A DNA stretch of 64,000 nucleotides from Deltaproteobacteria bacterium (lineage in GTDB: Bacteria > Desulfobacterota > Desulfobacteria > Desulfobacterales > Desulfatibacillaceae): positions 1-64,000 of the forward strand of contig JACRLG010000016.1 of the NCBI GenBank assembly GCA_016235345.1. The letters run 5' to 3'. The notes under the pieces are model-generated. The model was not told the origin of the DNA, searched no databases, and was given only the letters and a program-made list of their open reading frames with translations. The translations under genes and the position numbers were made by a program. This document shows positions 54,490-62,209 of this stretch, piece after piece. Numbering within the stretch: the stretch's first letter is position 1; each line of letters opens with the position of its first letter.

Positions 54490-54629
54490 TTTTCGTCCTT
54501 TTCTTTCTGTACAGGTTGAAGTTGTAAAAAGGGTCTCGATTGCCCGATTTTCTTCCGCCTGATACAACTTGCGCCCAAAGTTGTCAACAAAGGCTGTCGG
54601 ATGAAAATCCACGAACAGAACCCGCCTTG

Positions 54630-54657
54630 TTGACTTTGGGAGGCCGCAAAATATACA
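54630..54657 (+). promoter_or_regulatory. Sigma-70-type promoter of the macro domain gene
   Basis: TTGACT, a 16-nt spacer and TATACA lie about 50 bp before the ATG. Confidence 0.6.
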
Positions 54658-54704
54658 CTTTTACCGATACGATTTGTTTTCACTACCCAATCCGGGAGGA
54701 TGAC

Positions 54705-55229
54705 ATGGAAAAAGGCATTCTTGAACGAATGGAGGCCGTGCAGGGCGATCTCACCAAAATGAAGGTTGACGCCATCGTGAACGCGGCCAACTCAAGCCTT
54801 CTGGGCGGGGGAGGGGTTGACGGGGCCATTCATCGGGCCGCAGGGCCGGAGCTTCTGGCCGAGTGCCGCAAAATAAAGGGCGGCTGCCCCACGGGCCAGG
54901 CCCGCATTACCAAAGGGTACAACCTGCCCGCCAAATTCGTGATCCACACCGTGGGGCCGGTCTATTCGGGAACGGAAAAAGACCCCGTGCTTCTGGCAAG
55001 CTGTTATCGCGAAAGCCTTACGCTGGCGGTGGAAAACGGCTGCAAAACCATCGCCTTTCCGGCCATTTCCTGCGGCGTTTACGGCTATCCCATATCCGAA
55101 GCCGCCGAAGTCGCAGTGGAAACCACAACGGAATTTCTGAAATCGGACGATTCCATCCAAAAGGTCTTTTTCGTCCTCTTTTCCGGGCCGCATCTTGCCA
55201 TCTACAGAGATATTTTCAATAGCTTTTAG
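54705..55229 (+). CDS. Macro domain protein (O-acetyl-ADP-ribose deacetylase-like)
   Basis: 174 residues, a single macro domain of the YmdB/MacroD type, which binds ADP-ribose and removes acetyl or ADP-ribosyl groups. Signature residues are [50 protein letters not shown] and [26 protein letters not shown] lies eight bases before ATG 54705. It stands alone between the divergent ndk operon and the HesB-like genes. Confidence 0.93.
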
Positions 55230-55256: not shown

Positions 55257-55284
55257 TTGACAAGGCTTCGAGGTGCCCTATATT
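55257..55284 (+). promoter_or_regulatory. Sigma-70-type promoter of the first HesB-like gene
   Basis: TTGACA, a 16-nt spacer and TATATT. The same architecture recurs before the paralog at 55793. Confidence 0.65.
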
Positions 55285-55358
55285 GAAAGTTATTCGCTTT
55301 CAAAAGCGAACAACCGGCCTGTCCCAAGGGCCGCAATATAATCCAAAGGAGCCATCCC

Positions 55359-55742
55359 ATGCTGGAAGTCACCCCTTCGGCACACGAAAAATTTACCGAG
55401 TATTTCAAGGAACAGCCTGAGGTAAGCCCCATCCGGGTTTTCCTTAACCAGGGCGGCTGCGGCGGCCCGTCCCTTGCGCTCGCCCTGGACGACCCGCAGG
55501 TAAGCGATCAGGTTTTCAGTATCAATGGATTCACCTATCTTGTGGACAAGGAGTTTTTGGCAGCCGCCAAGCCCATAAAAATCGACTTTTCGCCCTTGGG
55601 TTTCGAGCTTTCCTCAAGCCTCGTCTTTGAACCGGGCGCAGGTTGCGGCGGTTGCGGCGGAGGCTGCGGAAGCGGCCACGATCACGAAGACGGCCACAGC
55701 CACGGTGAGGGTGATGGCCACGGCGGCTGCGGCTGCCATTAG
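55359..55742 (+). CDS. HesB/IscA-like protein with Cys/His-rich tail
   Basis: 127 residues. The N-terminal 90 are HesB/IscA-like: MLEVTPSAHEKFTEYFKEQP, FLNQGGCGGPSLALAL with Cys34 at the expected metal/cluster position, and NGFTYLVDKEFLAAAKPIKI. The usual C-terminal Cys-x-Cys is replaced by a glycine-, cysteine- and histidine-rich tail (GCGGCGGGCGSGHDHEDG, then HGGCGCH), which looks metal-binding. AAAGGAG precedes the ATG. It is followed by a close paralog with TGA at codon 34. Confidence 0.88.
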   Translation: MLEVTPSAHEKFTEYFKEQPEVSPIRVFLNQGGCGGPSLALALDDPQVSDQVFSINGFTYLVDKEFLAAAKPIKIDFSPLGFELSSSLVFEPGAGCGGCGGGCGSGHDHEDGHSHGEGDGHGGCGCH

Positions 55743-55792: not shown

Positions 55793-55820
55793 TTGACAAG
55801 ATTCCTCCAAAGGTTATCTT
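55793..55820 (+). promoter_or_regulatory. Sigma-70-type promoter of the second HesB-like gene
   Basis: TTGACA, a 16-nt spacer and TATCTT, so the two paralogs can be expressed separately. Confidence 0.65.
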
Positions 55821-55872: not shown

Positions 55873-56190
55873 ATGCTCGAAGTCACACCCTCCGCCCACG
55901 AAAGATTCGCGGAGTATTTCGCAAACCAGGATACGGTAAGCGCCATCCGGGTTTTCCTCAACCAACATGGCTGAGGCGGGCCGTCACTGGCGCTGGCTCT
56001 GGATGAGCCGCAGGCAAACGACCACGTGCTGGACATAAACGGCTTCACCTACCTCGTGGACAAGGAGTTCATGGAGCAGGCAAAGCCCATCAAGATTGAC
56101 TTTTCGCCAATGGGTTTCGAGCTTTCCTCCGGCCTTGAGATTGCCGCTGGCGGATGCAAAAGCGGAAGCTGCGGCGGAAGCTGCGGATAG
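55873..56190 (+). CDS. HesB/IscA-like protein, probable selenoprotein (TGA = Sec34)
   Basis: Reading through one TGA gives 105 residues that align without gaps to the first 90 residues of the upstream paralog: MLEVTPSAHERFAEYFANQD, then FLNQHG-U-GGPSLALALDE, NGFTYLVDKEFMEQAKPIKI and FSPMGFELSSG. The TGA (55972-55974) stands exactly at the paralog's Cys34. The coding pattern on both sides is intact, and a stem-loop follows at the distance expected for a bacterial SECIS. HesB-like selenoproteins are known in deltaproteobacteria, so selenocysteine is more likely than a nonsense mutation. The tail is CKSGSCGGSCG. AAGGAGG precedes the ATG. Ordinary gene callers will split or miss it. Confidence 0.82.
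55994..56010 (+). promoter_or_regulatory. Candidate SECIS stem-loop
   Basis: Twenty-five nt separate the TGA from the loop. GGCTC pairs with GAGCC (plus a T-G wobble) around loop TGGAT, which has a G in its first two bases as in the bacterial SECIS model. The paralog sequence at this place cannot form the stem. Confidence 0.6.
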
Positions 56191-56214: not shown

Positions 56215-56255
56215 AAAACGGGGAAAGGGCCCAGCGGCCTTTTCCCCGTTTTTTT
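56215..56255 (+). terminator. Rho-independent terminator after the HesB-like pair
   Basis: AAAACGGGGAAAGGGCC pairs with GGCCTTTTCCCCGTTTT around CAGC, followed by more Ts. It is likely to serve also the convergent cobQ transcript. Confidence 0.85.
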
Positions 56256-58622: not shown

Positions 58623-58694
58623 GCCGTTTTTCATCCGCGAAAAAAATTTCGACCGCCCGTTTCCCAGTCCGCGAGGAAACGGCCAACCACTGCG

Positions 58695-58848
58695 GCAAGC
58701 AGGTCTTCCGGCTTCCGGCTCGCTCTACTCGCTGCGCCTTCCCGTCGATAACGACAGTGGCGTGGTGCAGCTTTCGTCCCCGGTTACGGCGGCGGGACCG
58801 CGACGGACTTGCACCGTCTTCCCTATAAAGGCCCTGTGGGCCGCTTGC
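58695..58848 (-). promoter_or_regulatory. Cobalamin riboswitch
   Basis: The minus strand contains the conserved core in order: GGGAAGACGGTGCAAGTCCG, CGGTCCCGCCGCCGTAA, GACGAAAGC, ACGCCACTGTCG, GGGAAGGC and the B12 box GCCGGAAGACCTGC. The ends GCAAGC and GCTTGC form P1. It controls cobO-cobQ. Confidence 0.92.
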
Positions 58849-59317
58849 ATGTCTATGCTTTTACTAACCGGCGGATGCCTGAAAGTCAAAGGTAATTTTT
58901 TGGAAGCAGCCCTTTCCCGCGCCAATAATTCGGGTTCTTCCCCGTAGACTTTTAAACGAACGGGCTTCGGATTTCAGGAAGAGCAGAGATTGTCCCAAAA
59001 TCCGGAGCCTGTGGGTTTGATCACCTTTGACAATAATGTTGCTTGACACACGTGGCATGTTGAATATAAGTTCAGCATCAAATTTTTTCATGTTAAACAC
59101 CCGCAATCCGCCGTAAGGCGCGGCTGCGTATTTTTTCACGGGCCGACAGAGGAAGAAACGCGACGGCGCGCGGGGCTTTACGGACTTTGCCATTATTTTT
59201 TGCCGACCCGGCTCCGGGCAAAATACCGGAGACGCCGGCGTTTTTTCCTCGCTTAAAAAAGACATCCATATCGTTTTCAAAGGTGCGCTTTCGCACAACC
59301 TATGCCAAGGGGGCTTT
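58849..59317. other. Intergenic region before the secreted repeat protein
   Basis: About 470 bp that hold the promoter at 59043 and, on the minus strand, presumably the riboswitch promoter. A small hairpin CTCCGG/CCGGAG lies near 59210-59230. No gene is supported. Confidence 0.4.
59043..59070 (+). promoter_or_regulatory. Sigma-70-type promoter with a long leader
   Basis: TTGACA, a 16-nt spacer and TATAAG. It points toward 59318 and would give a leader of about 240 nt. Confidence 0.5.
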
Positions 59318-62209
59318 ATGAAATCCGTTTTCGGGCCGAAAGTTCTTCTTCTCGCTGCCTTCACCTGCCTGATCCTTCTCGCGGCCCTGCCCGGCGCGGC
59401 CCTGGCCGTTAATGAAACCATCCGCGTTTCGGTGAATTCATCCGGTGAAGAAGGTAACTCCAATAGTGGAACGCCTTCGGTTTCCGCTGATGGTCGTTAT
59501 GTAGCCTTCATGTCCTCTGCAAAAAATTTGGTTGCGGATGCAGCCAATATCCAAGATATCTTTGTTAAGGACATGCAAACCGGAGCCATTATTCGCGTTT
59601 CAGAGGTTTCACCTGGAGTTCCCTCTGAATGGGGTGCCAAAGAGCCTTCTATTTCCGCTGATGGGCGCTTCGTGTCCTTCACATACCTTACGCCAGATCC
59701 AGATAGTCCCGGAAGATATCTTAATTGGATTAGGGTGTTCGATACCCAGGAAGGTGTCGGCACTGAGCTAGGTGGAGGTGAAACTTCTTCAATTTCTGCA
59801 GATGGCCGTTATGTAGCTTTTGATTATGGCCCTATTTACGTATACGATATGCAAACCGGTCGCAGTTCTGTTGTATCAAAGAGTCCAACGGGAAATGCTG
59901 CTAATCTTCCCACCGGAAATCCTTCCATCTCAGCAGACGGACGATATGTGGCCTTCTGGTCCGAGGCAAATAACCTGGTTCCTGGTGACCCCGGAACCCT
60001 TGCAGATATTTTCGTTTTTGACAGGCAAACCGAGGTCACAACCTGCGTTTCAATGGACCCGTCAGGCACTCAATTTGCAAATGGACAATGTACAGCACCC
60101 TCAATTTCCGCAGACGGACGCTACGTGGCTTTCATGTCCTCGGCGAACAACCTTATTCCCAACGATGTCCTTGACACGTCGAAGGACATTTTCGTTCATG
60201 ACATGTTAACCGGCGTCACCACTCTGGTTTCCAAAGACTCAAGCGGAAACAAAGCAGCCTCTGAGTGTAATTATCCTTCCATTTCCGCTGATGGCCGATA
60301 TATCGCTTTTTCATCCTATGCATTTCTGGCTACCAATGACAACAACGACAATATGGACATATATGTCCGTGATATTCAACTGGGCACCACCACCCTTGTC
60401 TCCAATACTTTAGAGGGATGGGCGGGGAGCGGCAAATCCTGTGTAATGTCCTCAAACGGTCAATACGTCGCTTTTTCGTCCTTTGACCCTTACATAGTTC
60501 TAAACGATAACAACGGACTATCCGATATTTTTATAAAGGACTGGGAAATGGGCGCTATAAAAATGACCATTGCCCCCAGCTATTTGATACCCTCGACAAC
60601 GCAGTCCTGGTGCCTGGACGACAAAGATTGGTATAATGAAAACCAGCTGGTAACCGGTGTGACCGTGGGGCACCACTTCATCAGGTTCAAGTCTGTTACG
60701 GATTGGATTCAACCGCAGATACTGCATATAGACATCCCCGCCGGGGAGATCACTTACCTCACCGGAACATACCACCAGGAAGGCTCTTTGAACGTTACGA
60801 TTTTCCCTGGAGCCGCCGTAAACGCAGGCGCTCTCTGGACTTTGGACGGAGTAAACTGGTATCCCAGCGATACGACGCTGCACAACCTCCTGGTGGGCCA
60901 GTACACAATTACATACAAATCGCTTGACCTCTGGAACACTCCGGCCAGCCAGACAGTAACCGTCAAAAACAAGCCGGTCGCGTGCGCCAGCGCCACATAC
61001 ACTCCCAAACCCGGCTCGGTGAAGGTGACGCTAAGCCCCCAGGCCGCCATAGACGCAGGGGCTCGCTGGAGGCTGGACGGCGGTGCATGGCAGCAAAGCG
61101 GCGACACTGTAAACAATATCCCCATAGGCCAGCACACAGTTTCCTATTTGTCGCCCAACGGCTACAACACGGTTCCGAATTGCGTTGTGAACATATACTC
61201 ATGCCAGACCGCAACCGCTTCGGCCAAATACATTTTAAGCCCCAGCCTGAAGGTTCTGATCTCACCCCAGGCGGCGATAAACGCCGGGGCAAAATGGCGG
61301 GTGGACTCCTCGCCCTGGCAGTCGAGCGGCGCAAGCCTCACCGACCTTGCACCAGGGCCGCACTCCATCACTTTCAACACCGTTGCCAACTGGACCCCGC
61401 CCTGCCGCCAGATAATCTACCTGACGGAGGGCCAGCCTTCCACCACCACCGGAATTTACACGGTCCCATCCACCATAAGGGCCTTGAGGGTGACCATCGA
61501 ACCCCAGGCTGCGGCGGCGGCCGGGGCCAGATGGCGGGTGGACTCCTCGCCCTGGCAGACAAGCGGAACGACGCTGACCGGCCTTTCCGTGGGGCAGCAC
61601 ACGGTGAAGTTCAACATCATACCGGGCTGGGTAACCCCTCTCAACAAAACGGTTGCCATCAGCTCCGGCACAACTGCCTGCACCACCGGCGTATACGCGG
61701 CAATTCAGCCCCCAGGAGCCCTGAACGTGACCGCCCTGCCCCAGGCGGTGATCGGCAAGGCTTACTGGCGGGTGTTCGACGGCGCGTTTGAAACGCCCTG
61801 GCGGGCCGCAGGAACTGGGCCGATCAACGTGCCTGCGGGCGAGCACACCGTTTTTTTCAGTGACCTTGCGGGCTTTGTCACGCCTGCCAGCCAGACCGTT
61901 ACGGTAATCGCCGGTCAGACACTCAACCTCACCGGCACATACACCATCGCGGCGACAACCACCGGAACCCTTACGGTAAGCCTTGCCCGCCCCATGGCCA
62001 TGGGAGCCCAGGCCCGCTGGCGCGTCTACGACGGCCCGTCCGGCTACTCGTCGAACTGGCTCTACATGGGAGCAAGGCTTTTGAAGGTTCCCACGGGCCA
62101 GCACACGGTGGTCTTCAAACCGGTTCCGGGCTGGGTAACCCCCAGCGACCAGACCGTAACCATCACCGTCGGCCAGGACACTAAGGCGACAGCCACCTAC
62201 ACCCGTTAA
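59318..62209 (+). CDS. Secreted beta-propeller protein with seven C-terminal PEGA-like repeats
   Basis: 963 residues. The signal peptide is LLLAAFTCLILLAALPGAALA. Residues about 30-410 hold TolB/PD40-type propeller blades, each with SISADGRYVAF-like strands and DIFVxDMQTG motifs (about six). Residues about 415-963 are seven tandem repeats of 75-80 residues with the pattern VTxxPQAAxxAGARWRVDxxxW, then VGQHTVxFxxxxGWxTPxxxTV, resembling PEGA-type surface modules. The propeller half is AT-richer than the repeat half, suggesting different histories. GGGGGC lies just before the ATG. The stop codon is the first triplet of a palindromic element. A cell-surface role is likely; no enzyme motif is seen. 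Confidence 0.85.
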   Translation: MKSVFGPKVLLLAAFTCLILLAALPGAALAVNETIRVSVNSSGEEGNSNSGTPSVSADGRYVAFMSSAKNLVADAANIQDIFVKDMQTGAIIRVSEVSPGVPSEWGAKEPSISADGRFVSFTYLTPDPDSPGRYLNWIRVFDTQEGVGTELGGGETSSISADGRYVAFDYGPIYVYDMQTGRSSVVSKSPTGNAANLPTGNPSISADGRYVAFWSEANNLVPGDPGTLADIFVFDRQTEVTTCVSMDPSGTQFANGQCTAPSISADGRYVAFMSSANNLIPNDVLDTSKDIFVHDMLTGVTTLVSKDSSGNKAASECNYPSISADGRYIAFSSYAFLATNDNNDNMDIYVRDIQLGTTTLVSNTLEGWAGSGKSCVMSSNGQYVAFSSFDPYIVLNDNNGLSDIFIKDWEMGAIKMTIAPSYLIPSTTQSWCLDDKDWYNENQLVTGVTVGHHFIRFKSVTDWIQPQILHIDIPAGEITYLTGTYHQEGSLNVTIFPGAAVNAGALWTLDGVNWYPSDTTLHNLLVGQYTITYKSLDLWNTPASQTVTVKNKPVACASATYTPKPGSVKVTLSPQAAIDAGARWRLDGGAWQQSGDTVNNIPIGQHTVSYLSPNGYNTVPNCVVNIYSCQTATASAKYILSPSLKVLISPQAAINAGAKWRVDSSPWQSSGASLTDLAPGPHSITFNTVANWTPPCRQIIYLTEGQPSTTTGIYTVPSTIRALRVTIEPQAAAAAGARWRVDSSPWQTSGTTLTGLSVGQHTVKFNIIPGWVTPLNKTVAISSGTTACTTGVYAAIQPPGALNVTALPQAVIGKAYWRVFDGAFETPWRAAGTGPINVPAGEHTVFFSDLAGFVTPASQTVTVIAGQTLNLTGTYTIAATTTGTLTVSLARPMAMGAQARWRVYDGPSGYSSNWLYMGARLLKVPTGQHTVVFKPVPGWVTPSDQTVTITVGQDTKATATYTR

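Follow-up and report, generated by a model that had tools for sequence, protein, structure and literature searches.

The 64,000-nucleotide stretch of a deltaproteobacterial contig analysed here (the window) carries two closely related IscA/HesB-like genes, arranged head-to-tail on the forward strand and separated by a gap of 130 bases (Table 1). The upstream gene begins at ATG 55359 and has TGC (55458-55460) as its codon 34; the downstream gene begins at ATG 55873, has TGA as its codon 34 and ends with TAG at 56188-56190. The original prediction placed this TGA exactly opposite Cys34 of the neighbouring paralogue, with coding sequence on both sides. Both points hold: the frame is open on either side when UGA is read as selenocysteine (Sec), and the two proteins are 73% identical over their whole common length and align without gaps around residue 34. 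We refer to the two genes as the Cys copy and the Sec copy.

Table 1. Features of the Sec/Cys gene pair, in window coordinates.
Feature	Position	Strand	Details
Promoter-like site, Cys copy	55257..55284	+	TTGACA-16-TATATT, 11/12 matches
Cys copy (paralogue)	55359..55742	+	127 residues, C34, His/Cys-rich tail GHDHEDGHSHGEGDGHGGCGCH
Promoter-like site, Sec copy	55793..55820	+	TTGACA-16-TATCTT, 10/12 matches
Sec copy, IscA/HesB-like selenoprotein	55873..56190	+	105 residues, U34, Cys-rich tail GGCKSGSCGGSCG
UGA read as Sec	55972..55974	+	codon 34, position of the first cluster cysteine of IscA
Bacterial SECIS apical hairpin	55995..56009	+	GGCUC-UGGAU-GAGCC: arms GGCUC/GAGCC, loop UGGAU
Terminator-like hairpin and T run after Sec copy	56217..56253	+	GGGGAAAGGGCCCAGCGGCCTTTTCCCCGTTTTTTT

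Both proteins match the NCBIfam model NF038090 (IscA_HesB_Se) over its full profile length, at 112.9 bits for the Sec copy and 112.5 bits for the Cys copy against a curated cut-off of 85 bits, and both exceed the cut-off of the Pfam family PF01521 (31.1 bits for the Sec copy). Scores against TIGR01911 (HesB_rel_seleno) were 37.3 and 29.2 bits, under its cut-off of 66.35, and we therefore place both proteins in the sister family NF038090; none of the IscA, SufA and ErpA subfamily models, with cut-offs of 117-181, scored higher than 33.9 bits. The class of selenoprotein is thus a catalogued one, as had been anticipated, and the Sec copy is a further selenoprotein of NF038090. Sec is the usual state of this family in the genomes searched, but the entry describes single proteins and the tandem Sec/Cys layout seen here is not part of it. 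The HesB-like selenoproteins of TIGR01911 share the fold and the Sec site of the window protein (PMC1794560, PMC13188914), although the window proteins fall outside that family by score; the Sec motif, given as UxGP in a 2026 review (PMC13188914), is UGGP in the window protein. The function of HesB-like selenoprotein is stated to be unknown in Methanococcus maripaludis (PMC11097638).

The Sec protein, modelled at pLDDT 82 with a disordered tail, has the IscA fold, matching the IscA/SufA structures 1x0g, 1r94, 1s98 and 2d2a in Foldseek with E values down to 1.5e-6 and TM scores of 0.60-0.71. In the alignment with these solved chains, residue 34 falls on their first conserved cysteine, in GC(S)G. 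Given that this is the first cluster-ligand position of A-type carriers, metal or Fe-S binding via Sec34 is likely; judging from fold and alignment, Sec34 and the C-terminal cysteines would most likely serve together as its ligands. The A-type Fe-S carriers IscA, SufA and ErpA (PMC2682760) share the fold and this ligand position with the window protein, but differ in having cysteine where the Sec copy has Sec and one fixed CxC where the window proteins have a glycine/cysteine-rich tail. A search for a canonical PF01521 carrier elsewhere in the genome gave no strong match, and it did not recover the present pair either.

Bacterial SECIS elements are hairpins directly downstream of the UGA, whose apical loop, 16-37 nt from that codon, has a G close to its start. 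In the Sec copy the loop begins 25 nt past the UGA, in line with this rule. The prediction that a SECIS-like stem-loop at this distance is unavailable to the Cys paralogue proved correct: the probability of the stem in its local context is 0.994 in the Sec gene of the window and 7e-6 in its Cys neighbour. The same separation extends across homologues, with all five stem pairs forming in 116 of 120 Sec genes versus 2 of 64 Cys genes, and the local stem probability exceeding 0.5 in 114/120 and 3/64, respectively; an earlier count on fewer rows found the stem complete in 70/74 Sec and 1/44 Cys genes (p 2e-26). The Ala codon in the 5' arm is GCU in every one of 119 Sec genes versus 9/51 Cys genes (GCU makes up 16% of the other Ala codons of Sec genes), and the Leu codon that follows reads CUG in 74/74 Sec genes. 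Between the Sec copies of the window and its sister species, synonymous change is 0.35 after the UGA and 1.3 before it, based on small counts, as predicted for an RNA element within a coding region. Pair counts and local stem probability were used in place of folding energy, which is not diagnostic: the 49-nt stretch of either gene folds like its own shuffles, with no extra stability (z 0.24 and -0.12), and synonymous-codon shuffles did not separate Sec genes from Cys genes (p 0.15). The case for the SECIS consequently rests on the comparative evidence.

The SECIS also constrains the protein sequence. Its 3' arm encodes the Glu of LALDEP, a residue that Sec copies keep and many Cys copies have exchanged (LALDDP in the window, LALDAATDED in several Desulfovibrio-like genomes). 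This offers a reason why LDE(P/S) after the active site is retained in Sec proteins, whereas Cys proteins are free to vary there. In one Cys gene (L105, genome G588) the sequence GGCTC-TAGAT-GAGCC still pairs after TGT, and looks like a fossil SECIS from a recent Sec-to-Cys change.

We looked for the decoding machinery, as the original prediction proposed, and found all of it: SelA (587.5 bits), SelB (360.6 bits), SelD (342.8 bits) and a tRNA-Sec with anticodon UCA. The selD gene (G000, C7, 113791-114720) also encodes a selenoprotein, with a TGA in frame within ASGUAAKL, which includes the GUAAKL motif. Among the NF038090 matches listed for the window's own family, order and phylum, most have a single TGA in frame. 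We read 190 distinct homologous genes, 120 with the UGA and 70 without, and residue 34 is Sec or Cys only in the NF038090 homologues read. Because the Sec machinery is complete, the SECIS is conserved and most of the family has the same UGA, UGA34 is, on sequence evidence, almost certainly decoded as Sec; with very strong comparative support, SelB, tRNA-Sec and the SECIS hairpin would carry out this step. UGA is formally a stop, and the gene could be read as a truncated pseudogene left by a random stop or a sequencing error. This is highly improbable, given the complete machinery and the same UGA in the sister species; instead of the decay expected downstream of a random stop, 120 distinct homologues have the UGA with intact downstream sequence and a conserved SECIS. 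We rejected a pseudogene or error on this conservation of the UGA and of the sequence beyond it.

We then considered how the pair arose. A near-identity search of contigs returned two loci only, and whole-genome searches with family profiles were used instead. The sister species, Deltaproteobacteria bacterium isolate WY2.bin34 (G003, locus L021), has this pair too, with its genes in identical order. Within the window's family, every relative over the cut-off outside this genus carries Sec, and a linked Cys copy occurs in this genus only. The tree unites all four tandem genes from these sister species in a single clade (support 100/85), with Sec grouping with Sec and Cys with Cys, which places the duplication before the split of the two species; in a second tree built from other rows the support for the clade was weaker (90/25). 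With Sec the surrounding state, Sec to Cys is the simpler direction of change. The Cys copy is, from these sequence comparisons, most likely a derived duplicate common to the window and the sister species, and the probable course is duplication of a Sec gene, after which Cys replaced Sec, the SECIS decayed and a His/Cys-rich tail grew. The description of Sec as a substitute for the cluster cysteine is accordingly right as to position and reversed as to direction, Sec being the usual state and the Cys copy likely the derived one. Between the two species, purifying selection acts on both copies (Sec copy, dN 0.16, dS 0.54, dN/dS ~0.29; Cys copy, dN 0.20, dS 1.26, dN/dS ~0.16).

The arrangement is not confined to this genus. 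Tandem copies occur at a minimum of 38 of the loci read, and in at least 36 tandem pairs both copies score above 100 bits; each of these consists of one Sec and one Cys gene, with no Sec/Sec or Cys/Cys pair among the 36 read. At least five families have such pairs. Those read fall in the window's genus and in families f87, f88 and f112, and two further pairs were seen by coordinates in f51, which belongs to the window's order (G058 and G140); in f112 a linked Sec/Cys pair was counted from coordinates in at least 31 of 69 sampled genomes. Partners of several pairs group together in the tree (for example L088 100/99, L140 100/97, L143 100/96 and L151 100/94) and the order of the Sec and Cys genes varies between lineages, suggesting that duplication was repeated or that older pairs underwent gene conversion; within f112, a similar tree would result from duplication together with gene conversion of an older pair. 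On the tree we count about 20 changes of the Sec/Cys label, at least 16 of these by well supported branches. Some genomes, such as G247 and G259, have two unlinked Sec copies, so that two Sec copies in one genome are possible but were not seen side by side. At L138 and L141 the genes form triplets, in which a Sec copy and a Cys copy are followed by a more distantly related Cys gene. We found no description of tandem Sec/Cys HesB pairs in the open literature, which is weak evidence as subscription papers lay mostly outside the search. This recurrent side-by-side pairing is the part that deserves follow-up.

The two genes had been credited with separate but similar promoters, and promoter-like sites with 16-base spacing do precede each of them, with counterparts of closely similar hexamers in L021. 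Two sigma-70-like sites of the same layout were found against 0.6 expected by chance; the site of the Sec copy is identical in hexamers and spacing in L021, and that of the Cys copy corresponds there to TTGACA-16-TATAAT. Each copy is probably expressed from its own promoter, as far as these motifs indicate. Downstream of the Sec copy, the terminator scan gave a single match (56233-56250) against 1.3 expected in shuffles, which by itself is weak.

Separate promoter-like sites would suit a selenium-responsive switch, in which the Cys copy is a stand-in derepressed at low selenium. A perfect 8-bp inverted repeat, TTCGCTTTcaAAAGCGAA, lies at 55293-55310, just past the -10 box of the Cys gene, and the pairs read are always mixed. 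There is also precedent in the Sec/Cys hydrogenase isogenes of M. maripaludis, which are under transcriptional control by HrsM (PMC11097638). Desulfobacterium autotrophicum has Sec and non-Sec paralogues in one genome (PMC2702500). Like the window, these genomes hold Sec and Cys versions of one enzyme, but theirs are redox enzymes, whereas the window pair consists of head-to-tail copies of a carrier-like protein. The inverted repeat, however, is absent from the sister species. When we searched k-mers and inverted repeats in the upstream regions of tandem copies (36 Cys, 38 Sec), we obtained lineage-specific motifs only, and no operator shared across lineages or between the two sister species; a shared selenium-control operator was rejected on this basis. 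In addition, Sec and Cys copies are unlinked in many genomes, and Cys copies have gained extra ligands beyond what a stand-in would need. On balance, we regard a selenium switch as a rather unlikely explanation of the pairing. In one Desulfovibrio-like genus (L100, L102, L104, L120 and L121), the likely -10 region of Cys copies, some 50 bases upstream of them, lies between the arms of a palindrome, TTTTTCG...CGAAAAA, which is a candidate operator.

The gain of ligands by the Cys copies is seen in the C-terminal tails. Cys copies have more tail cysteines than their Sec partners in 14 of 17 lineages, an equal number in three and fewer in none (sign test, p 1e-4, with lineages that are not fully independent). 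CxC, the IscA pattern, is the first tail motif in 13/63 Cys copies and in 0/119 Sec copies. In the window the Cys copy adds a His-rich tail, which the Cys copy of the sister species does not have. These differences are indirect evidence that Sec and Cys copies may differ in ligand chemistry. Of the two roles originally suggested for the pair, a selenium-responsive switch or two metal specificities, the latter gains some indirect support from the richer tails of the Cys copies.

Plain redundancy would account for the pairs if tandem duplicates were frequent and one copy lost Sec by drift, the pairing itself having no function. Sec-to-Cys change is known in selenoprotein families including the HesB-like one (PMC1794560), and the many label changes on our tree are in keeping with it. 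We nevertheless judge redundancy improbable: both copies in the window are under purifying selection, 36 of 36 pairs combine one Sec with one Cys gene, and the extra tail cysteines arise in parallel. We favour the interpretation that the pair comprises a Sec-form and a Cys-form A-type carrier of Fe-S clusters or metal, with their own promoters and probably partly specialised, and consider this description as a whole likely. Both copies would most likely have been kept through this partial specialisation, the two carriers differing in ligand chemistry, with selenium independence as a by-product.

More tentatively, tandem pairs may have formed many times in parallel, with Sec always kept in one member and the other changing to Cys, because the Sec and Cys versions perform different and complementary steps, for instance with a selenolate-ligated versus a thiolate-ligated cluster or metal. 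If so, they would constitute a repeated natural experiment on what Sec gives to metal binding, away from classical redox catalysis. In evolutionary terms, the closest parallel is metazoan selenophosphate synthetase, in which parallel duplications were followed by loss of Sec in one copy and convergent subfunctionalisation was proposed (PMC4561486). That protein is a different one, and its Sec gave way to residues other than Sec or Cys, whereas the copies described here remain adjacent and change to Cys. Adjacent, near-identical Sec and Cys proteins that have formed repeatedly provide matched material on what selenium contributes to an Fe-S or metal carrier, and they also bear on whether selenium supply or division of labour accounts for their retention.

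Neighbouring genes were considered as a clue to function and rejected, since no neighbour is conserved across the loci; those seen include phosphofructokinase, methyltransferase, AMP-binding, metallophosphoesterase and macro-domain genes. In the window, a macro-domain protein (54594-55229, forward strand; PF01661, 164 bits) lies directly upstream of the pair. L021 has a similar-looking reading frame in this place, of which the scanned piece, 775-1230, gave no Pfam match. Further along the window, a cobalamin riboswitch (58681-58863, reverse strand; Rfam RF00174, 107 bits) lies upstream of minus-strand cobalamin genes that read as CobO/CobQ-like. The forward-strand gene at 59318-62209 encodes a protein of 963 residues; its N-terminal half is repetitive, and GARWRVDGGxW-type repeats are numerous in the C-terminal half.
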